A stretch of DNA of 64,000 nt from a beta proteobacterium AAP51 (lineage in GTDB: Bacteria > Pseudomonadota > Gammaproteobacteria > Burkholderiales > Burkholderiaceae_C), in NCBI GenBank assembly GCA_001295905.1, contig LJHT01000003.1:1-64000 (forward strand), read 5' to 3'. The notes below the pieces were generated by a model. It did not search any database. It worked only from the letters and a program-made list of their open reading frames with translations, and had not been told where the DNA came from. Below, piece by piece: positions 14,635-55,948 of this stretch. Positions within the stretch are counted from its first letter, which is position 1; each line of letters begins with the position of its first letter. The translations under genes were made by a program, and so were the position numbers.

Positions 14635-17100
14635 ATGCCCGCACCCGGGTCTGACGACGCCGCTGCCGATGACCCCGACGCCACGGTCGTGCGGCCGCGC
14701 GCGGGCAGCACCATCACGCGCACCCAGGCCTTGCCATCGCGCGCCGAACTGGGCCCCGACCCCAGCCTGGACCCCGACGCCACGGTGGTGAAGCCGCGCC
14801 GGGCGGCCGCGGACCCCGACGCCACCGTCATCCTGCGCCCCGGCACCGCGCCTGCGGTGCGCCTGCCCGAGCCGAGGCGCCTGCCGCTGGCGCTGGCGCC
14901 GGGCTTCCGGCTGCACGAGTACCGCATCGAGCGCGTGCTCGGCCAGGGCGGCTTCGGCATCACCTACCTGGCCACCGACGTGCACCTGAACAGCCGCGTG
15001 GCCATCAAGGAGTACCTGCCCGAGGAGATTGCCTTCCGCACCGGCGACCGCAGCGTCAGCCCCAATGCCAGCCAGCACCGCGACCGCTACCGCGAGGGGC
15101 TGGAGAACTTCCTCGTCGAAGCGCGTACGCTGGCCACCTTCCGGCACCCGAACATCGTGCGCGTGGCGCGCTTCTTCGAGGCCCACCGCACCGCCTACAT
15201 GGTGCTGGAGTACGAAGAAGGCCAGCCCTTCAAGACCTGGTGGCCCGAGAACCGCCACATCGGCGAAGCCGGCCTGCTGGAATTGCTGCTGCCGCTGCTG
15301 GACGGCCTGGCGGCGGTGCACACGGCGGGTTTCCTGCACCGCGACATCAAGCCCGACAACATCCAGGTGCGCGCCGCCGATGGGCGCCTGGTGCTGCTGG
15401 ATTTCGGCAGCGCCGGCCAGACCGTGGCCGTGGCGGGCCAGGGCGCGGTGGTGGTCACCCCCGGTTATGCGCCGCTGGAGCAATACGGCTTCGGCCGCCA
15501 GGGCGCGTGGACCGACCTCTACGCGCTGGGTGCCACGCTCTACTGGGCCGTGGCCGGCAAGAAGCCGCCCGATGCCGAACTGCGCGCCGCCAACCCGCGC
15601 AGCTTCGTGCCGGCCGTGGAAGCCGCTTCGGCCGCTGCAGCCGCGGCGGAGGCTGCAGCGGCCACACCTGCCGGCGCCGGCCCGGTTTTCGGCAGCGCCT
15701 TCCTGCAGGCCATCGACTGGGCCCTGGCGGTGGAGGCGGCCCAGCGCCCGCAAAGCGTGGGCGAACTGCGGCGGGCGCTGTGCACCGACCACGTGGCCAG
15801 CCTCGACCTGCAGGAAGCCCTGCGCGACGGCGACACCGTGCCCGATGAAACCCACCAGCCGCTGCGGGTGCGGGCAGCGGTGCGGCTGCGGCGCTTCTTC
15901 AGCACGCTGCTGCACCCGCCGGCCTGGCCGCTGGCGCTGAAGATGACGCTGGCCATGGTGGCCACCGCGCTGCTGCCCATGGGGGTGACTGCGCTCTACA
16001 ACCTGCGCGGCGCCATGGAGGCCGTGACCGCCGGCGAGATGCGTTTCGTGGAGCAGATGGCCATCAGCTCGGCCGGCCGCCTGGCGCAGTTCATCACCGA
16101 CCAGCGCCACCTGGTGCGCGCGCTGGCCACCGACGAAGACCTGCAGCTGGCCGCAGCCAGCGCACCGCCGCGGCCCCCCGAGCAGACCGGCAAGCTGAAC
16201 GACAAGCTCGCCCGTTTCGTGCAGGCCAACCCCGACCTCGAACGCCTGCTGCTGGCCGACCTGCAGGGCCGCGTGCTGGCGGCCAGCGACAGCAGCTGGG
16301 CAGCCCGCGACGTGGCCGCCGAGCCCTGGTTCCGCGAAGCCGCCCAGGGCCGCGCCCACACCGGCGACCTGGCGCTGGGCCGCGAGGAGTTTTTCCCCGG
16401 CATGGTGCTGGCGCAGCCCGTGACGGGCGCCGATGGCCAGGTGCTGGGCGTGCTGGCGCTGCGCGTGCGCGGCAGCTCGGTGGCGACGCTGATCGACGAA
16501 GTGCGCAACGATGCTTCGCTGACGCCCTTCCTGATCGACCGTGACGGTGTGCTGCTGCACCACCTGCAGGAAGACCTGGTCTTCAGCAGCCTGCTGCCGT
16601 TGCCGGCCCAGCGTCAGGCCGAGCTGGCGGCCGAGCAGCGCTTCCGCCGCAGCCGCATCGAAAGCCTGAACGAAGCCGGCCTGGCCGCCGCCATGCTGGG
16701 CGCGCAGCGCACCGGCCACGTGGCCTACCGTTCTACCGTGCACGGCCGCGACGAGATTGCCGGCTACGCCCCCGTGGCCGCGCACGACTGGGTGGTGGGC
16801 GTGGCCAAGAGCCGCACCGACTTCGAGGCGCCGCTGCGCCCGCTGTACACCCAGCTGCAATGGAGCGTGGCGCTGGTGGGCCTGCTTTTCACCGGCCTGG
16901 CCTTGCGCTTCGCCCGCAGCATCGTGCGGCCCGTGCGTGCGCTCACGCAGGCGGCGGCGGCGCTGAAGGAAGGCCAGTACGAAACCGCGGCGGTGGAAGT
17001 GAAGCGCCGGGACGAGCTGGGCCAGCTCGGGCGCACCTTCAACGTGATGATCGACGTGCTGCGCCAGCGCGAAAGGGAACGCCGGCGCGACGGTGGCTGA
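14635..17100 (+). CDS. Receptor-type serine/threonine protein kinase with periplasmic sensor and C-terminal HAMP
   Basis: 821 residues. Residues 1-70 hold three copies of DPDATV (Thr17, Thr50, Thr64). The kinase domain covers about 92-345: Gly-loop GQGGFG at 103-108, Lys125 in VAIK, HRDIKPDN from 235, DFG at 256-258, and YAPLEQY as the activation-loop end. An Ala-rich linker is followed by TM1 at about 436-458, an extracytoplasmic Cache-like region at about 460-740, TM2 at about 743-762, HAMP at about 763-815, and almost nothing after it. So the kinase is N-terminal in the cytoplasm and the HAMP ends the protein, unusual for a sensor. GGAAGG at 14624-14629 supports ATG 14635. The stimulus and targets are unknown. 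Confidence 0.92.
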   Translation: MPAPGSDDAAADDPDATVVRPRAGSTITRTQALPSRAELGPDPSLDPDATVVKPRRAAADPDATVILRPGTAPAVRLPEPRRLPLALAPGFRLHEYRIERVLGQGGFGITYLATDVHLNSRVAIKEYLPEEIAFRTGDRSVSPNASQHRDRYREGLENFLVEARTLATFRHPNIVRVARFFEAHRTAYMVLEYEEGQPFKTWWPENRHIGEAGLLELLLPLLDGLAAVHTAGFLHRDIKPDNIQVRAADGRLVLLDFGSAGQTVAVAGQGAVVVTPGYAPLEQYGFGRQGAWTDLYALGATLYWAVAGKKPPDAELRAANPRSFVPAVEAASAAAAAAEAAAATPAGAGPVFGSAFLQAIDWALAVEAAQRPQSVGELRRALCTDHVASLDLQEALRDGDTVPDETHQPLRVRAAVRLRRFFSTLLHPPAWPLALKMTLAMVATALLPMGVTALYNLRGAMEAVTAGEMRFVEQMAISSAGRLAQFITDQRHLVRALATDEDLQLAAASAPPRPPEQTGKLNDKLARFVQANPDLERLLLADLQGRVLAASDSSWAARDVAAEPWFREAAQGRAHTGDLALGREEFFPGMVLAQPVTGADGQVLGVLALRVRGSSVATLIDEVRNDASLTPFLIDRDGVLLHHLQEDLVFSSLLPLPAQRQAELAAEQRFRRSRIESLNEAGLAAAMLGAQRTGHVAYRSTVHGRDEIAGYAPVAAHDWVVGVAKSRTDFEAPLRPLYTQLQWSVALVGLLFTGLALRFARSIVRPVRALTQAAAALKEGQYETAAVEVKRRDELGQLGRTFNVMIDVLRQRERERRRDGG

Positions 17101-48473: not shown

Positions 48474-49880
48474 ATGCAAGCCGCGCAGAACCAGCTCATC
48501 ACCCGCATCGGGCCCGGCACGGCGTGTGGCGAGCTGATGCGCCGCTACTGGCAGCCGGTGGCGCTGCTGGACGAATTCGACCCCGCGCTTGACCCGCGCA
48601 TGGCGCAGCGCCCGTTGAAGGCCGTGCGCCTGCTGGGCCAGGAGCTCGTGCTCTTCCGTGACGAAACCGGCCGCTACGGCCTGCTGGACCGTGATTGCCC
48701 GCACCGCGGCGCCGACCTGGCCTACGCCCGCCACGAAGGCGACGGCCTGCGCTGCCCCTTCCACGGCTGGAAGTTCGACGCCACCGGCCGTTGCCTGGAA
48801 ACCCCGGCCGAACCGTCCGTCAACGGCGTGCCCAGCACGCTGTGCCAGCGCGTGCGCCAGCGCAGCTACCCGCTGCAGCAGGTGGCCGGCGTGCTGTTCG
48901 CCTACCTCGGCCCCGAAGACAGCCCGCCGCCCGCGCTGCCCGCCTTCGATGCCTACACCGCCCCGGCCACGCACAGCTTCGCGTTCAAGGGCCTGTGGCG
49001 CTGCAACTGGCTGCAGGCTTTCGAGGTGGGCATGGACCCCGCGCACCCCAGCTTCCTGCACCGCTACCTGCAGGACGAAGACACCGATGCCGAACGCGCC
49101 TACGGCCGCCAGTTCCGCGCCGCCAGCCTGGGCGAGGTGGACGGCCAGCGCTGGCCCATGACGCGCGTGATGCGCGAGTTCTGCAGCCCCGAGATCCAGC
49201 ACGCCGAAGTCGCGCCCGGCCTGCTGCGCCTGACGGCGCTGCGGCACATCAACGAGCAGCTCACGCACGTGCGCGTCACGCATGCGGCCTTTCCGCACAC
49301 CTTCGTGATACCGCTGTCGGAGACGCTCACCATCACGCAGCTGCACGTGCCGGTGGACGACGAGAACACCTACTGGTACAGCTTCTTCACCAGCTACGCC
49401 GGCCCGCTGGACAAGGCCACGATGCGCGCGCAGCGCCTGGCCCACACCACGCTGCCCGACTACGTGCCGAAGAACGGCCGCCACAACCACTGGAACTTCA
49501 ACCCGGAAGAACAGCGCACGCGCACCTTCCTGGGCATGGGCGAGGAAGACATCAACCTGCACGACCAGTGGGCCGTGGAGAGCATGGGCCCCATCCAAGA
49601 CCGCACGCGGGAACACCTGGGCAGCAGCGACCAGGTCATCATGGCCTACCGCCGCCTGCTGCTGAAGGCCATCAGCACCGTGCAGGCCGGCGGCACGCCG
49701 CCGCTGGTGCTGGGTGCGGCCGAAGCGGCCGCGCTGCAGGGCCCGCACACCATCGACTGCATGGCTCCGGCCCAGGGCTGGCTGCCTTTCTGGCAGGCCA
49801 CGGCCGCGGCCCGGCGTGCCGCTGCGCCCTGGCTGGCCGCAGCCGCTGGCTCCGAAGCCAGCGCACCCCACGCCCCATGA
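48474..49880 (+). CDS. Rieske [2Fe-2S] aromatic-ring-type oxygenase, alpha subunit
   Basis: 468 residues, close to phthalate 4,5-dioxygenase and related demethylases. Rieske centre ligands: CPH in DRDCPHRGADLAY and CPFHGW 18 residues later. Mononuclear iron motif D-x2-H-x4-H is in GMDPAHPSFLHRYL. The start ATG 48474 is chosen from the conserved N-terminus (QNQLITRIGPGTACGELMRRYWQPV). First gene of a plus-strand cluster; the next gene's ATG overlaps its stop (ATGA). A ferredoxin is encoded two genes downstream, but no reductase is present. The substrate is unknown. Confidence 0.93.
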   Translation: MQAAQNQLITRIGPGTACGELMRRYWQPVALLDEFDPALDPRMAQRPLKAVRLLGQELVLFRDETGRYGLLDRDCPHRGADLAYARHEGDGLRCPFHGWKFDATGRCLETPAEPSVNGVPSTLCQRVRQRSYPLQQVAGVLFAYLGPEDSPPPALPAFDAYTAPATHSFAFKGLWRCNWLQAFEVGMDPAHPSFLHRYLQDEDTDAERAYGRQFRAASLGEVDGQRWPMTRVMREFCSPEIQHAEVAPGLLRLTALRHINEQLTHVRVTHAAFPHTFVIPLSETLTITQLHVPVDDENTYWYSFFTSYAGPLDKATMRAQRLAHTTLPDYVPKNGRHNHWNFNPEEQRTRTFLGMGEEDINLHDQWAVESMGPIQDRTREHLGSSDQVIMAYRRLLLKAISTVQAGGTPPLVLGAAEAAALQGPHTIDCMAPAQGWLPFWQATAAARRAAAPWLAAAAGSEASAPHAP

Positions 49881-51433
49881 GCCTGGCCCGCCGCTGCGGC
49901 GTGCACAGCGCGGCGCGTGAAGCCGCCTGCGCCGCCGTGCGCCAGCAGGCGCAGGCCGCCGGCCTGCAGCAGGTGCGCGTGGCCTGGCCCGACCTGCACG
50001 GCAGCCACCGCGGCAAGACGCTGGTGGGCGAAGCCGCGCTGGCCGATGCGCTGCAAGACGGCATTGGCATGGTGAGCACGCTGCTGCTGAAAGACACCGC
50101 CGACCGCACCGCCGTGCCCGTGTTCGAAGCGGGGGCGCTGGCCCAGCTGCCGGGCTTCGGCGCGGCCAACAACGTGCTGCTGCTGCCCGACCCTGCCAGC
50201 TTCACCGTGCTGCCCTGGGCGCCGCACACCGGCTGGTTGCGGGCCGATGCCTGGTGGCCCGATGGCAGCCCCGTGGCCACTTGCCCGCGCCGCGTGCTGC
50301 AGCGGGCGCTGGCCGAACTGGCGGCGGCCGGCTACAGCCTGCGCTGCGGGCTGGAAGTGGAGTTCCACATCCACCGCGTGGTGGACGACGGCCTGGCCGC
50401 TGAGCTCGCAACTGGCTCCGATGCCGCCGGCGCCTGGCCGGCCCAGCCACCCACGCTGCGCCACACCCACGCCGGCTGGCACCTGCTGGCCGAAGCCACG
50501 GCCGATGCCTGCGAAGCACCGCTGCACATCGTGCGCCACACCGCGCTGGGGCTGGGCCTGCCGTTGCGTTCACTGGAAATCGAGATGGGCCCGAGCCAGT
50601 TCGAGGCCGTGTTCGCCCCCACCGACGCCCTCACCGCCGCCGACCAGATGCTGGCCTTCCGCAACGGCGTGCGCCAGGCCTTGCGCCGCGCCGGCTACCA
50701 GGCCAGCTTCATGGCCCGGCCGCCGCTGGCCGGCAGCGTGGCCAGCGGCTGGCACCTGCACCAGTCGCTGCTGCGGGCCGATGGCAGCGCGGCCTTTCCG
50801 CCTGCAGCGCAGGCGGCTTCCCCTTCCGCGCCTGCAGCGCAGGCGGCTGCCCCTTCCGCGGCTGCGGCGCAGGCGGGCTTGCCATCCGCGCCTGCCCACG
50901 ACGCTCGGCACTGGCTTTCCGCCCCCGGGGTGCATTGGCTGGCCGGCCTGCTGGCCCACGCCCGCGGCATGGCGGCGCTGTGCGCTCCCAGCATCAACGC
51001 GTATGTGCGCTACCAGGGCGGCGTGATGGCCCCGCGCGCGGCCGTCTGGGGCCGCGACAACCGCGGCGCCATGCTGCGCGTGGTGGGCGGCCCGGGCGAT
51101 GCCGCCACGCGCATCGAAAACCGCCTGCCCGAGCCCCTGGCCAACCCCTACCTCATGCTGGCGGCGCAGGTCTTCGCAGGCCTGCACGGCCTGCGCGCGG
51201 CCCTGCAGCCACCGCCCGGCACCGAAACACCCTACGACGCTGCGCACCCGGCCCTGCCCACTTCATTGGCCGAAGCCCTGCAGGCGCTGGCCGACGACCC
51301 CGTGCTCCTGCAGGGCCTGGGGGCCCCCATGGCCCAGGTGTTCCTGGCCGTGCGTCGGCAAGAGCTGGCCCGCCATGCCGCGGCCGAAGACAAGGCGCAA
51401 TGGGAAGCTCGTGAATACTTCGGGCGCTACTGA
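49877..51433 (+). CDS. Glutamine-synthetase-like ligase (putative gamma-glutamyl amide synthetase)
   Basis: 518 residues of the GS superfamily, GlnA3/PuuA-like rather than true GlnA. Catalytic features: GLEVEFHI, EIEMGPSQFEAVF, SGWHLHQSLL, SINAYVRYQ, WGRDNRGAMLRV and RIENRLPEPLANPYLMLAA. These cover Mg-, glutamate- and ATP-binding positions, and it lacks the adenylylation-loop signature of GlnA. An Ala/Gln/Pro/Ser repeat (residues ~309-338) is inserted just after HLHQSL. Being translationally coupled to a Rieske oxygenase suggests it glutamylates an amine substrate before or after oxidation, as in aniline catabolism; that is inference. Confidence 0.88.
   Translation: MSLARRCGVHSAAREAACAAVRQQAQAAGLQQVRVAWPDLHGSHRGKTLVGEAALADALQDGIGMVSTLLLKDTADRTAVPVFEAGALAQLPGFGAANNVLLLPDPASFTVLPWAPHTGWLRADAWWPDGSPVATCPRRVLQRALAELAAAGYSLRCGLEVEFHIHRVVDDGLAAELATGSDAAGAWPAQPPTLRHTHAGWHLLAEATADACEAPLHIVRHTALGLGLPLRSLEIEMGPSQFEAVFAPTDALTAADQMLAFRNGVRQALRRAGYQASFMARPPLAGSVASGWHLHQSLLRADGSAAFPPAAQAASPSAPAAQAAAPSAAAAQAGLPSAPAHDARHWLSAPGVHWLAGLLAHARGMAALCAPSINAYVRYQGGVMAPRAAVWGRDNRGAMLRVVGGPGDAATRIENRLPEPLANPYLMLAAQVFAGLHGLRAALQPPPGTETPYDAAHPALPTSLAEALQALADDPVLLQGLGAPMAQVFLAVRRQELARHAAAEDKAQWEAREYFGRY
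50801..50890 (+). repeat. 30-bp minisatellite inside the GS-like gene
   Basis: Three tandem 30-bp units (50801-50830, 50831-50860, 50861-50890). The first two differ at one base; the third has diverged. Each contains a CCTGCAGCGCAGG-type dyad able to form a hairpin. The array is in frame and encodes an Ala/Pro/Gln-rich loop. Confidence 0.85.
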
Positions 51434-51518
51434 GCGCCCCGTCGTCCCCGTGGCCCTGCCGTCCGGTGCCGGGCAGCGCCGCGCTCCTCACCCCTTCTTT
51501 CCCATACGCCACCCCGCC

Positions 51519-51848
51519 ATGAGTTCCATCACCCTGCACCTGCAAGACACCGACGGCAGCACCCACACGCTGCAGGCCCGCGCCGGCCGCAGCCTGATGC
51601 AGGCCGCCGTCGACGCCGGCCTGCAGGGCATGGCGGCCGATTGCGGCGGCAGCCTCAGCTGCGCCACCTGCCATGTCATCGTGGCGCCCGAATGGCGGGC
51701 CGCGCTGCCCCCGGTGAGTGCGGACGAAGCCGCCATGCTGGAGATGACCGCCGCCCCGGCCGAAGCCGGCAGCCGCCTGGCCTGCCAGCTGAAGCTGGGC
51801 CCTGCGCTGAACGGCCTGCAGGCGCGCATGCCGGCCACGCAGTACTAG
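51519..51848 (+). CDS. [2Fe-2S] ferredoxin, putidaredoxin/adrenodoxin type
   Basis: 109 residues. Cluster ligands: CGGSLSCATC (C-x5-C-x2-C) and a fourth Cys in SRLACQLKLG. The CGGSLSCATCHVIVAPEW segment is characteristic of putidaredoxin-class ferredoxins, which serve P450s and some Rieske oxygenases. It probably delivers electrons to the oxygenase at 48474. ATG 51519 matches the family N-terminus. The upstream open frame runs inside the GS-like gene. Confidence 0.93.
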   Translation: MSSITLHLQDTDGSTHTLQARAGRSLMQAAVDAGLQGMAADCGGSLSCATCHVIVAPEWRAALPPVSADEAAMLEMTAAPAEAGSRLACQLKLGPALNGLQARMPATQY

Positions 51849-51873
51849 GCCCTCGCAACAAGGCCCGCGCACG

Positions 51874-52377
51874 ATGAAGCTGCTGCGAAAAGTGCTGGAG
51901 GTGCTGGCCCAGGGCTGCGCCGTCCTGGCCGGGGTGCTGCTCACGGTCATCACGCTGATGACCTGCGCCAGCCTCATCGGCCGCAACACCACCGGCTGGA
52001 CGCTGGTGGGCGATTTCGAACTCGCCGGCTCGGCCGCCGGTGCTGCCATCGCGCTGTTCATGCCCTGGTGCCAGGCGCAGCGCGGTCACATCATGGTCGA
52101 CTTCTTCACCGCGCGCGCCCGCGCCGCCACCCGCGCCGCGCTGGATCGCTGCGGCGCGCTGCTGCTGGCGCTGGTGATGGGCCTGATGGCCTGGCGCACC
52201 GGCATCGGCGGCCTGAACGCCTGGAACAGCCAGGCCGGTTCGATGAAGCTGGGCTTCCCGGAATGGATCGTCTATGCCTTCATGGTGCCGCCGCTGGCGC
52301 TGACGGCCTTGATCGCCGCATTGCAGGCCCTGGCCGGCTTCGCTGAAGAAAAGGCGCCGGCAGGAGCCCCCGCATGA
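51874..52377 (+). CDS. TRAP transporter small permease (DctQ family)
   Basis: 167 residues with four hydrophobic helices (e.g. GCAVLAGVLLTVITLMTCASLIGRN, ALLLALVMGLMAW and WIVYAFMVPPLALTALIAAL), the standard DctQ architecture. The family-typical motif near MPWCQAQRGHIMVDFF is present. The stop overlaps the dctM start by 4 nt. Part of a tripartite secondary uptake system for organic anions. Confidence 0.92.
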   Translation: MKLLRKVLEVLAQGCAVLAGVLLTVITLMTCASLIGRNTTGWTLVGDFELAGSAAGAAIALFMPWCQAQRGHIMVDFFTARARAATRAALDRCGALLLALVMGLMAWRTGIGGLNAWNSQAGSMKLGFPEWIVYAFMVPPLALTALIAALQALAGFAEEKAPAGAPA

Positions 52378-53690
52378 GCCCCATCACCCAGGCCGTGCTC
52401 ATCTTCGGCGTGATGCTGGTGCTGATGGCACTGCGCACGCCCATTGCCGTGGCCATGTTCTGCGCCGGGGCCACGGGCTATGTGGCGCAGGCCGGCTGGC
52501 TGCCGCTGGCCAGCTTCCTGAACACCCAGGCCTTCGCGCGCTTCGCCAGCTACGACCTGAGCGTCATTCCGCTCTTCATCCTGATGGGCAACTTCGCCAC
52601 GCAGGGTGGCATTTCGCGGGCGCTGTTCCAGTTTGCGGCGGCGGTGATGGCGCGCTTCAAGGGCGGCCTGGCCATGGCCTCGGTGCTGGCCTGCGGAGCT
52701 TTTGGTGCCATCTGCGGCAGCAGCGTGGCCACGGCCGCCACCATCACGCAGGTGGCGCTGCCCGAGATGCGCAAGCACGGCTACAGCGGCCGCCTCACCA
52801 CCGGCGCGCTGGCCGCCGGCGGCACGCTGGGCATCCTGATTCCGCCCTCGGTGCCGCTGGTCATCTACGCCATCCTCACCGAGCAGAACATCGCCAAGCT
52901 CTTCGCCGCGGCCATGCTGCCGGGGCTGATTGCGGTGCTGGGCTACATGGTGGCCATCGCCATCTACGTGCGCCTGGTGCCCGGCCAGGCGCCCGAGCAC
53001 GACGAGGCGCCCGCGCTCACGCTGCAGGCGCTGTCGGGCATCCTGCCCATCGCGGCGGTGTTCCTCATCGTCTTCGGCGGCATCTACAGCGGCCTGTTCA
53101 CGCCCACCGAAGGCGCGGCCGTGGGGGCGGCGGCCACCTTCGTGGCGGCGCTGCTGAAGCGCGAAATCACCTGGGCCGGCTTCCAGCAGTGTTTCCTGGC
53201 CACGGCGCAGACCTCGGCGATGATCTTCCTCATCTTCCTGGGCGCCGACCTCATGAACGCCGCGCTGGCGCTGACGCAGGTGCCCAGCCAGCTGTCTGCG
53301 GTGGTGCAGGGCTGGGGCCTGCCGCCGCTGGCGGTGGTGGCGGCCATCCTGCTGTTTTACGTGGTGCTGGGCGCGGTGATGGACGAGCTGAGCATGCTGC
53401 TGTTGACCATCCCCATCTTCTTCCCGGTGGTGATGGGGCTGGACTTCGGCATGCCCGCCGAGAGCGTGGCGCTGTGGTTCGGCATCATGGTGCTGATGAC
53501 CGTGGGCTTCGGCATGCTGGCCCCGCCGGTGGGGCTGAACGTCTACGTCGTCAACAGCATGGCGCCGGGCGTGCCCATTGCCGAGAGCTACCGCGGTGTG
53601 CTGCCTTTCCTGCTGAGCGACACCGTGCGCACGGTGCTGCTGCTTTTCTTCCCGCCGCTGAGCCTGTGGCTGGTGCAGTACATCGGCTAG
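52374..53690 (+). CDS. TRAP transporter large permease (DctM family)
   Basis: 438 residues, a polytopic membrane protein with about 12 helices. Typical segments: SVIPLFILMGNFATQGGISRALF, GAFGAICGSSVATAATI, LPEMRKHGYSGRLTTGALAAGGTLGILIPPSVPLVIYAI and GMLAPPVGLNVYVVNS. It carries the Na+/substrate translocation path. Coupled to dctQ. The solute receptor gene lies separately at 54789, beyond an antisense hydrolase gene. Confidence 0.96.
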   Translation: MSPITQAVLIFGVMLVLMALRTPIAVAMFCAGATGYVAQAGWLPLASFLNTQAFARFASYDLSVIPLFILMGNFATQGGISRALFQFAAAVMARFKGGLAMASVLACGAFGAICGSSVATAATITQVALPEMRKHGYSGRLTTGALAAGGTLGILIPPSVPLVIYAILTEQNIAKLFAAAMLPGLIAVLGYMVAIAIYVRLVPGQAPEHDEAPALTLQALSGILPIAAVFLIVFGGIYSGLFTPTEGAAVGAAATFVAALLKREITWAGFQQCFLATAQTSAMIFLIFLGADLMNAALALTQVPSQLSAVVQGWGLPPLAVVAAILLFYVVLGAVMDELSMLLLTIPIFFPVVMGLDFGMPAESVALWFGIMVLMTVGFGMLAPPVGLNVYVVNSMAPGVPIAESYRGVLPFLLSDTVRTVLLLFFPPLSLWLVQYIG

Positions 53691-53711
53691 CCGCTCCGCG
53701 CCAGCCAGCCT

Positions 53712-54641
53712 TCATTCGGCCAGGAAGGCCTGCAGCGCCGCCAGCGCGGCTGCCGGCGCTTCTTCGTGCGGCACATGGCCCACGCCGGGTAGCACCACCA
53801 GGCGCGCATTCGGCAGGGACTTGAGATAGTCCTGCGCGTTGGCGATGGGGATCATCTGGTCCTGGTCGCCCCAGACCAGCAGCGTGGGCGCGGCGATGCG
53901 GCGCAGCAGCGGTTCGGGCGGCAGCAGGTTCAGCTGCGCCAGCCGCGCCAGGATGGCGGGGCGCACGCCAGGCGCGCGCATCAGGTCGTGGTAGCGCTGT
54001 ACCAGCGCGTCGGTCATCACCACGTCGGGCTGGGCGTAGGCCGGCGCCAGGCTCATGCGCAGCACGGCGCGCGGCAGGGCGAAGGTCATGGCCCGGGCGA
54101 GCAGGCCCACATTGGGGGCCTTGCCGTACTCGAAGCCCGGGCTGGCAAAGCCGTCGGGCGCCACCAGCACCAGCTTGTGCACGCGCGCAGGCTGGGCTTC
54201 GGCAAAACGCCAGGCCAGGCGGCCGCCCATCGAATGGCCCAGCACCGTGGCCCGCGCCACGCCCCGCTGCGTGAGCAGTGCGGCCAGCAGCTCGATGCCG
54301 CGTTCGTCGCTGTAGTCGCCGCTGGGGTCGGCACCGGTGAGGCCAGCGCCGGGCAGGTCGATGCGGATGACGCGGTGCGTGGCCGCCAGGCCATCGGCCC
54401 AGGGCTCGAAGCTGTGCAGGCTGCCGCCGAAGCCGTGCAGCATCAGCACCACGGGGCGGCCGCTGGTGTCGCCGGGCGCGCTGTCGCGCAGGTGCAGGCG
54501 CAGGCCCATCACTTCGGTGAATTCGCTGCCCGGGCCGGCGTACAGGGCCTCGAGCTCGGCACGCGGTTTGTCGGGGGTGTAGAGCCAGCCCCCGCCCAGC
54601 AAGGCCAGCAGCAAGACGAGAGCCAGGGCCATGCGCTTCAC
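53712..54641 (-). CDS. Alpha/beta hydrolase, exported or membrane anchored
   Basis: 309 residues from GTG 54641 (VKRMALALVLLLALLGGGW; ATG 54632 is an alternative). An N-terminal hydrophobic anchor is followed by an alpha/beta-hydrolase fold: oxyanion HGFGG, nucleophile elbow GHSMGGRLA, acid in VWGDQDQMIP and His in GVGHVPHEE. A lid region is at about 180-245. It is inserted antisense between dctM and dctP. The substrate is unknown; it could hydrolyse an ester or amide related to the transported compound. Confidence 0.88.
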   Translation of the reverse strand: MKRMALALVLLLALLGGGWLYTPDKPRAELEALYAGPGSEFTEVMGLRLHLRDSAPGDTSGRPVVLMLHGFGGSLHSFEPWADGLAATHRVIRIDLPGAGLTGADPSGDYSDERGIELLAALLTQRGVARATVLGHSMGGRLAWRFAEAQPARVHKLVLVAPDGFASPGFEYGKAPNVGLLARAMTFALPRAVLRMSLAPAYAQPDVVMTDALVQRYHDLMRAPGVRPAILARLAQLNLLPPEPLLRRIAAPTLLVWGDQDQMIPIANAQDYLKSLPNARLVVLPGVGHVPHEEAPAAALAALQAFLAE

Positions 54642-54788
54642 CGGAAGCAGGTGGAAGGCAGGGCTGGCGTGCGCATCGCGGCATTCTCGCCGCGGCCGGC
54701 TCAGGGTAAACCGTAGCCACGCACAGGGGGCTGCGCCGTTAACTTCGCCACCTGCTTTCCAACACCACCAACCCGGAGACTGCTCCTC

Positions 54789-55835
54789 ATGATCCAACGC
54801 CGTCGTCTTGTGCAGGGCGCTGCCGCCGCCGCCCTGGGTGTGCCCCACCTGGCCGGCCTGGCCCAGCAGACCGTCACGCTGAAGTTCCACACCTTCATGC
54901 AGCCCATGAGCAACGTGTGGCTGACCATGCACAAGCCCTGGATGGAGAAGGTGGAAAAGGAATCGGGCGGCCGCATCAAGTTCGAGGCCTACCCCGCCAT
55001 GCAGCTGGGCGGCACGCCGGTGCAGCTGTACGACCAGGCGCGCGACGGCGTCGTCGACATCGTCTGGACGCTGCCCGGCAACACCGCCGGCCGCTTCCCG
55101 CGCGTGGAGGTGTTCGAGCTGCCCTTCATGATGAACAACGCCGAGGCCACCTCGAAAGCCTACTGGGAGTACTTCCAGACCCAGTGCCCCGACGAGTTCA
55201 AGGAAACCCACGTGCTGGCGGTGCAGGTGCACGGCCCGGGTGTCTTCCACAGCGCCAGCAAGGCCATCACGCAGGCGGCCGACCTGAAAGGCATGAAGGT
55301 GCGTGGCCCCACGCGCCAGGTGACGAACATGCTGCGCGCGGTGGGCGCCATACCCGTGGGCATGCCGCTGCCGGGCATCCCTGATGCGCTGAGCAAGGGC
55401 ACCATCGACGCCGCCGTCATTCCCTGGGAGGTGGTGCCTTCGGTGAAGGTGCACGAGCTCACCAAGTTCCACAGCGAGTTCCCGGCGGGCAGCCCGGCGC
55501 TTTACACCACCACCTTCGTGATGGCGATGAACAAGCCCAGGTACGAAGGCCTGGCCCCCGACCTGAAGCGGGTGATCGACAACAACAGCGGCATGGCCGC
55601 CAGCGCCTTCCTGGGCCGGACGCAGCAAGGCAACGACCCCATCGGCCGCAAGACCGCCACCGACCGCAACAACACCATCCACACCTTCACGGCCGCGCAG
55701 ACGCAAGAGTTCATCCAGCTCAGCGCCGCCATCGACGACGCCTGGGTGGCCGACATGGACAAGCGCGGCTTCAAGGGCAAGGCCCTGCTCGACAGCGCCA
55801 AGGCCCTGATCGCGAAGCACGGCACCCGGACGTGA
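54789..55835 (+). CDS. TRAP transporter solute-binding protein (DctP family)
   Basis: 348 residues. The signal (MIQRRRLVQGAAAAALGV) is Tat-like with RRR. Mature part: TLKFHTFMQPMSNVWL, QLYDQARDGVVDIVWTLPG, VFELPFMMNNAE, LKGMKVRGPTRQVTNMLRAVGAIPVGMP and the C-terminal helices. Arg in MKVRGPTRQ is the conserved carboxylate-binding residue of the family, so the ligand is probably an organic acid. It is divergent from the hydrolase with 147 bp between them, and must work with the DctQM permease at 51874-53690. Downstream is a duplicated hairpin. Confidence 0.95.
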   Translation: MIQRRRLVQGAAAAALGVPHLAGLAQQTVTLKFHTFMQPMSNVWLTMHKPWMEKVEKESGGRIKFEAYPAMQLGGTPVQLYDQARDGVVDIVWTLPGNTAGRFPRVEVFELPFMMNNAEATSKAYWEYFQTQCPDEFKETHVLAVQVHGPGVFHSASKAITQAADLKGMKVRGPTRQVTNMLRAVGAIPVGMPLPGIPDALSKGTIDAAVIPWEVVPSVKVHELTKFHSEFPAGSPALYTTTFVMAMNKPRYEGLAPDLKRVIDNNSGMAASAFLGRTQQGNDPIGRKTATDRNNTIHTFTAAQTQEFIQLSAAIDDAWVADMDKRGFKGKALLDSAKALIAKHGTRT

Positions 55836-55854: not shown

Positions 55855-55948
55855 CGCCGGGTGCCGGACTCAGCGCGATTTCACGCGCTGAGGCGGCGCC
55901 ACTGCGCCGGGTGCCGGACTCAGCGCGATTTCACGCGCTGAGGCGGCG
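55855..55948. repeat. Perfect 44-bp direct repeat (period 50) with duplicated terminator-like hairpin
   Basis: Copies at 55855-55898 and 55905-55948 are identical. Each holds the stem-loop CTCAGCGCG, loop ATTTCA, CGCGCTGAG (55869-55892 and 55919-55942). Copy two includes the stop and last codons of the ROK kinase gene, so the 3' end of that gene has been duplicated downstream. Position between convergent genes suggests a doubled terminator. Confidence 0.9.

Follow-up and report, generated by a model that had tools for sequence, protein, structure and literature searches.

We analysed a 64,000-nucleotide stretch (the window; contig LJHT01000003.1) from the 5.1 Mb draft genome of beta proteobacterium AAP51, in which the following genes and features surround a Rieske oxygenase:

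48474-49880, + strand: sadA-like Rieske oxygenase alpha subunit of the phthalate/isophthalate dioxygenase family (468 aa; Rieske PF00355 and LigXa_C PF19301)
49877-51433, + strand: sadB-like gamma-glutamyl organic amide synthetase, a glutamine synthetase (GS)-like ligase (518 aa; PF00120)
50799-50895, + strand: 30-bp tandem array, in frame within the ligase gene (TRF, 3.2 copies; about 25 extra residues)
51519-51848, + strand: sadD-like [2Fe-2S] ferredoxin of the putidaredoxin/adrenodoxin type (109 aa; PF00111)
51874-52377, + strand: dctQ, small TRAP permease (PF04290)
52374-53690, + strand: dctM, large TRAP permease (PF06808, TIGR00786)
53712-54632, - strand: alpha/beta hydrolase, between dctM and dctP (PF00561)
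54789-55835, + strand: dctP, TRAP solute-binding protein of the aromatic-acid (TarP-like) kind (PF03480)

The initial annotation had read five plus-strand genes from oxygenase to dctM, with dctP 1.1 kb further on, and all of them lie at that place and on that strand. The sequence bears out the ATGA overlap that it described for the oxygenase and ligase genes (ATG at 49877, TGA at 49878-49880), and dctQ and dctM overlap in the same way (52374-52377). The alpha/beta hydrolase probably stands outside the system; a relative was present in one of 80 related loci (the best 80 of at least 590). Directly 3' of dctP, two perfect 44-nt direct repeats lie 50 nt apart (window 55855-55948), each containing the palindrome CTCAGCGCG...CGCGCTGAG; the pair is perhaps a double terminator. 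A search of the region for sigma-70-like promoters gave none, an absence that says little.

Scanning GTDB genomes with an oxygenase profile returned at least 590 related stretches, of which we examined the best 80 loci. Conserved co-occurrence had been set beforehand as the test of the proposed cluster, and among these best 80 the oxygenase and ligase occur together in 77 and all three genes in 66, several of the exceptions being short contigs; the ATGA overlap is exact in 59 of the 71 loci compared. The trio is thus a real unit, and its recurrence is far beyond chance. Across 201 family genomes, a ligase homologue above threshold was present in 47, and 35 of these carry a window-type ligase (about half identical or more, by reading of the matches). 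In 34 of the 35 the oxygenase adjoins the ligase, with the ferredoxin next in most. Named trio hosts, among the matches listed, include Polaromonas, Limnohabitans, Ramlibacter, Hydrogenophaga, Rubrivivax, Ideonella and Caenimonas; the closest named relatives by oxygenase, again among the matches listed, are Beta proteobacterium AAP65 and Rubrivivax rivuli. Among Rubrivivax relatives from freshwater and soil, the trio is widely distributed.

Two further observations concern gene content at these loci. An ABM-domain protein of about 100 aa is conserved after the ferredoxin in 22 of the best 80 of at least 590 loci (L080, L084, L097 and others), and at L060 a sad-type ligase relative (15553-17076, about half identical) has no detectable oxygenase alongside.

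A sad operon encoding 4-aminobenzenesulfonate 3,4-dioxygenase was reportedly described in Hydrogenophaga intermedia PBC by Gan et al. in 2012. In that strain sadA-sadB-sadD, identified via transposon mutagenesis, make up the dioxygenase, which deaminates 4-aminobenzenesulfonate to 4-sulfocatechol; the operon was present in all Hydrogenophaga genomes known at the time of the paper, and its original substrate, probably a natural compound of similar structure, was left open (PMC5632844). The SadA, SadB and SadD proteins of strain PBC carry the accessions WP_009515254, WP_009515256 and WP_009515258. The adjacent oxygenase, ligase and ferredoxin of the window have the order and make-up published for sadA-sadB-sadD, so the cluster is not undescribed, as had been proposed. 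An orthologue of the window oxygenase was present in 54 of 67 genomes (41 of the 44 near-complete ones), whose genus we took to be Hydrogenophaga because one of them, G228, shows the same five-copy plasmid match as Hydrogenophaga sp. BPS33. At the main locus the identity of these orthologues is 64-69%, a few partial or additional copies aside, and the ligase lies beside the oxygenase in all seven Hydrogenophaga genomes checked. Judged by published gene order and by these orthologues, the window trio is a putative chromosomal member of the sadABD-type system.

The nearest solved structures of the oxygenase are isophthalate and phthalate dioxygenases (Z ~31). Its Rieske CxH/CxxH motifs, the bridging D188, and H191, H196 and D364 are invariant in 26 sequences. 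The best PDB matches of the ferredoxin are the 4ltu and 1e9m ferredoxins and putidaredoxin, and its four cluster cysteines are invariant in 19 sequences. The initial annotation considered this combination of oxygenase and ferredoxin not to be a textbook pairing; however, the sad system makes the same pairing, as do LigXa-LigXc and DdmC-DdmB, in which single-subunit Rieske oxygenases work with adrenodoxin/putidaredoxin-type ferredoxins. An invariant oxygenase arginine, R267, aligns with Arg234/Arg244 of isophthalate/phthalate dioxygenase, residues that anchor the substrate carboxylate (PMC12445078).

The ligase has NpaA1 as its best PDB match (297 bits). In a tree of 38 ligases it falls into one clade (98/98) with those of Hydrogenophaga, Polaromonas, Limnohabitans and others; the sad-like ligases borne on plasmids and aniline/naphthylamine ligases such as NpaA1 are relatives of this clade. 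The window ligase thus groups with functionally known arylamine ligases and apart from GlnA, the three rows on the GlnA side being long branches. The GS metal, glutamate and ATP residues are retained, and E160, E162, E234, E236, E243, H293, R378, E414 and R416 are invariant in 25 sequences. Sad-type ligases have Met or Leu in place of the GlnA flap Glu, as in NpaA1 (PMC11335346). The NpaA1 tunnel residues Phe75, Phe86 and Trp235 correspond to Lys72, Phe83 and Met237 in the window ligase, so that only Phe86 is conserved. Lys72 is fixed in 28 of 28 sad-type ligases, the position being Phe or Val in four aniline-type ligases, and Arg77 is nearly invariant in the sad type. Such a charged tunnel would suit an amine with an acid group, which Lys72, perhaps with Arg77, may hold. 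At 518 aa the window ligase exceeds the 490-495 aa usual in its relatives; the tandem array within its gene encodes Ala/Pro-rich repeats and is possibly a length-variable loop. Beside the ligase, the GAT-like A2 and alpha-beta oxygenase genes that are a feature of atd/tdn/npa clusters are absent.

DctP matched receptor structure 5im2 with 521 bits (Z 41, 67% identity); after it come TarP-coumarate complexes and receptors described as 'specific for aromatic acid ligands'. Rhodopseudomonas palustris TarP has nanomolar affinity for cinnamic acids (PMC3610893). R172 and R176 of DctP, invariant in 18 sequences, are both candidates for the carboxylate-binding Arg168 of TarP. Going by its closest relatives, DctP is classed as a receptor of the aromatic-acid type.

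A sister branch of the system is carried on plasmids of Caballeronia, Cupriavidus, Paraburkholderia, Polaromonas, Methylobacterium, Nitratireductor and Novosphingobium. On 7 of 11 plasmids with a close oxygenase we found PnbB (4-hydroxylaminobenzoate lyase), in six cases within 11 kb, while PnbB is rare on plasmids overall (26 of 72,556 records; enrichment P = 1e-22, a value that ignores kinship and plasmid size). PnbB converts 4-hydroxylaminobenzoate, the nitroreductase product of 4-nitrobenzoate, to protocatechuate. Because PnbB makes protocatechuate in the 4-nitrobenzoate route, 4-aminobenzoate would be a natural companion substrate. Some sister plasmids also carry a nitroreductase, a Reductase_C-type ferredoxin reductase, Peptidase_C26 and an aromatic acid/H+ symporter. 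Plasmid pSA3 of Novosphingobium resinovorum SA1, a degrader of 4-aminobenzenesulfonate (sulfanilate; PMC5632844), has the oxygenase-ligase pair with a maleylacetate reductase nearby; matches of this reductase in Hydrogenophaga genomes are all 43-50% identical. In alphaproteobacterial sad-like clusters, small CHMI-like (PF02962) proteins adjoin the ligase (L151 11952-12293, L180 11730-12068).

We favour, with moderate confidence, a sadABD-type chromosomal operon served by an aromatic-acid TRAP importer and acting on an acidic aromatic amine, most likely converting 4-aminobenzoate to protocatechuate. The cargo of DctPQM would be an aromatic carboxylate that also carries a primary amine; 4-aminobenzoate or a closely similar para-substituted acidic aniline is the most likely candidate. 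At the cost of ATP, the SadB-like ligase would then link the substrate amine to the gamma-carboxyl of glutamate, with tunnel-loop Lys72 (perhaps together with Arg77) gripping the acid group. With the SadD-like ferredoxin and a reductase whose gene lies elsewhere supplying electrons, the SadA-like oxygenase would dioxygenate the ring at the amide-bearing carbon and the one next to it, releasing the glutamyl-amine and yielding protocatechuate, which the host's protocatechuate 4,5-cleavage enzymes would degrade. The chemistry inferred from the window at the outset (uptake of an acidic amine, gamma-glutamylation, Rieske oxidation) fits this evidence. The initial annotation had noted no ring-cleavage gene near the trio; a protocatechuate 4,5-cleavage cluster sits on another host contig (C56), with LigB assigned by Pfam and pobA, ligI, ligA, ligC, ligJ and ligK homologues by ORF reading.

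Several findings count against this reading. The substrate published for sad is a sulfonate; gentisate rather than protocatechuate genes adjoin the trio in many Comamonadaceae; and the PnbB link is confined to the plasmid sister branch, outside the clade of the window. PnbB was not found in the host, a weak absence because the control was silent. As the initial annotation had noted, no ferredoxin reductase gene is seen near the trio in the window, and a search of the host for a Reductase_C-type (PF14759) reductase, a candidate SadC partner and the one reductase type covered, found none. The best Peptidase_C26 gene of the host is not beside the trio; it sits on contig C75 at about 0.5 kb from a further GS gene, and a stretch there (G000:C75:83615-95615) holds the Peptidase_C26 gene and two GS-like genes and is probably a putrescine (puu) cluster.

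The adjacency itself might be accidental, the ligase being an ordinary nitrogen-assimilation or polyamine enzyme and the oxygenase an unrelated phthalate-type dioxygenase. GS-like enzymes and phthalate-type dioxygenases do form large families whose members differ in substrate, but translational coupling, co-occurrence across many genera, the replaced flap Glu and the position of the host's three other GS genes, far outside the window-ligase clade, render this account exceedingly improbable. A less remote alternative concerns the TRAP system, which could be a neighbour with a role of its own (benzoate-type acids, other pathways) while the substrate of the trio enters otherwise. Other sad-like clusters have ABC or MFS transporters, and in relatives the TRAP genes accompany gentisate genes; the receptor also occurs in 21 of the 167 family genomes that lack the trio, so the TRAP may serve other aromatic acids. 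Yet dctP is strongly tied to the trio, being present in 30 of 34 trio genomes within the 201 (Fisher P = 7e-18, kinship ignored), and the TRAP genes follow the ferredoxin directly in Rubrivivax-type loci (among the best 80 of at least 590). A plasmid of Pseudooceanicola algae, moreover, has an independent TRAP set next to the ligase (L180 13598-16508). We consider a separate role unlikely.

The identity of the substrate is where the favoured 4-aminobenzoate reading meets its other competitors. Downstream of the trio in Polaromonas, Ramlibacter and others come a MarR-type regulator, a 3-hydroxybenzoate 6-hydroxylase-like enzyme, gentisate 1,2-dioxygenase, an FAH-family hydrolase and TRAP genes (names in this block, other than MarR-type and ABM, being given by reading of the sequences), and Comamonas QT12 degrades 3-aminobenzoate via 5-aminosalicylate (PMC9584955). 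The same machinery could accordingly act on a meta-amino acid (3-aminobenzoate or 5-aminosalicylate) and feed a gentisate pathway. However, the gentisate block is absent from the window and its Rubrivivax relatives, Limnohabitans loci among the best 80 of at least 590 have the trio only, and the gentisate dioxygenase homologue of the host is located elsewhere and only 37% identical. The neighbourhood of the block also contains PHB-synthesis genes and so looks like a conserved chromosomal stretch, and deaminating dioxygenation of a meta-amine would not yield gentisate. We judged the gentisate genes a neighbouring block, rejecting them as the lower half of the pathway, and hold a meta-amino substrate to be quite improbable. 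We give a similarly low rank to a different natural substrate of the para-substituted acidic aniline type (for example 4-aminophenylacetate, 4-aminosalicylate or an aminobenzenesulfonate), 4-aminobenzoate being no more than an incidental substrate. The published account leaves the natural substrate open (PMC5632844), and, since SadABD converts a sulfonate, more than one kind of acid group is tolerated in the pocket; against this, benzoates are the compounds suggested by two finds on the sister plasmids, PnbB and the aromatic acid symporters.

A 2017 account gave the natural substrate of the sad operon as unknown; the window system makes that question testable. The co-location of PnbB on plasmids, the aromatic-acid TRAP receptor and Lys72 lead to one concrete candidate, 4-aminobenzoate, and to a residue to mutate. 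Some Hydrogenophaga are unable to make 4-aminobenzoate, the folate precursor (PMC5632844), which would give ecological interest to a pathway that destroyed it in the same bacteria. On a wider view, which we hold about as readily as its contrary, the sad family would be a widespread chromosomal pathway for 4-aminobenzoate and like acids in freshwater and soil Burkholderiales, running via N-gamma-glutamyl-4-aminobenzoate, and not a curiosity of dye degradation; Lys72 would mark an acid-specific subfamily of arylamine ligases. The three-gene module itself was already known; what we add is some new evidence on its natural substrate.

Among the known systems with which the locus can be compared, MabA of the mab cluster is a flavoprotein. 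The mab cluster of Comamonas QT12 likewise concerns aromatic amino acid catabolism in Comamonadaceae, but its described route passes through 5-aminosalicylate (PMC9584955); identity of the locus with this cluster was weighed and stays among the rival readings. The window DctP resembles TarPQM (PMC3610893) and receptor 5im2 in fold, sequence and conserved Arg, and differs in having a sad-type trio as its genomic partner. Phthalate and isophthalate dioxygenases (7fjl, 9ina) share with the oxygenase the fold, the Rieske and mononuclear iron sites and the carboxylate-anchoring Arg; identity is about 30%, however, and they are described without a ligase partner. In the AtdA/TdnQ-type systems and NpaA1-A5 (PMC11335346), a Rieske enzyme oxidises the gamma-glutamyl arylamide formed by a related ligase, whereas the window has a single phthalate-dioxygenase-family alpha subunit with a ferredoxin in place of alpha-beta subunits and a reductase, and Lys72 where those ligases have a tunnel Phe or Val. 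The sad operon matches the window in its three components and in their order, and the orthologous locus runs throughout Hydrogenophaga; the window differs from it in belonging to another genus and in having its trio directly followed by a TRAP importer.
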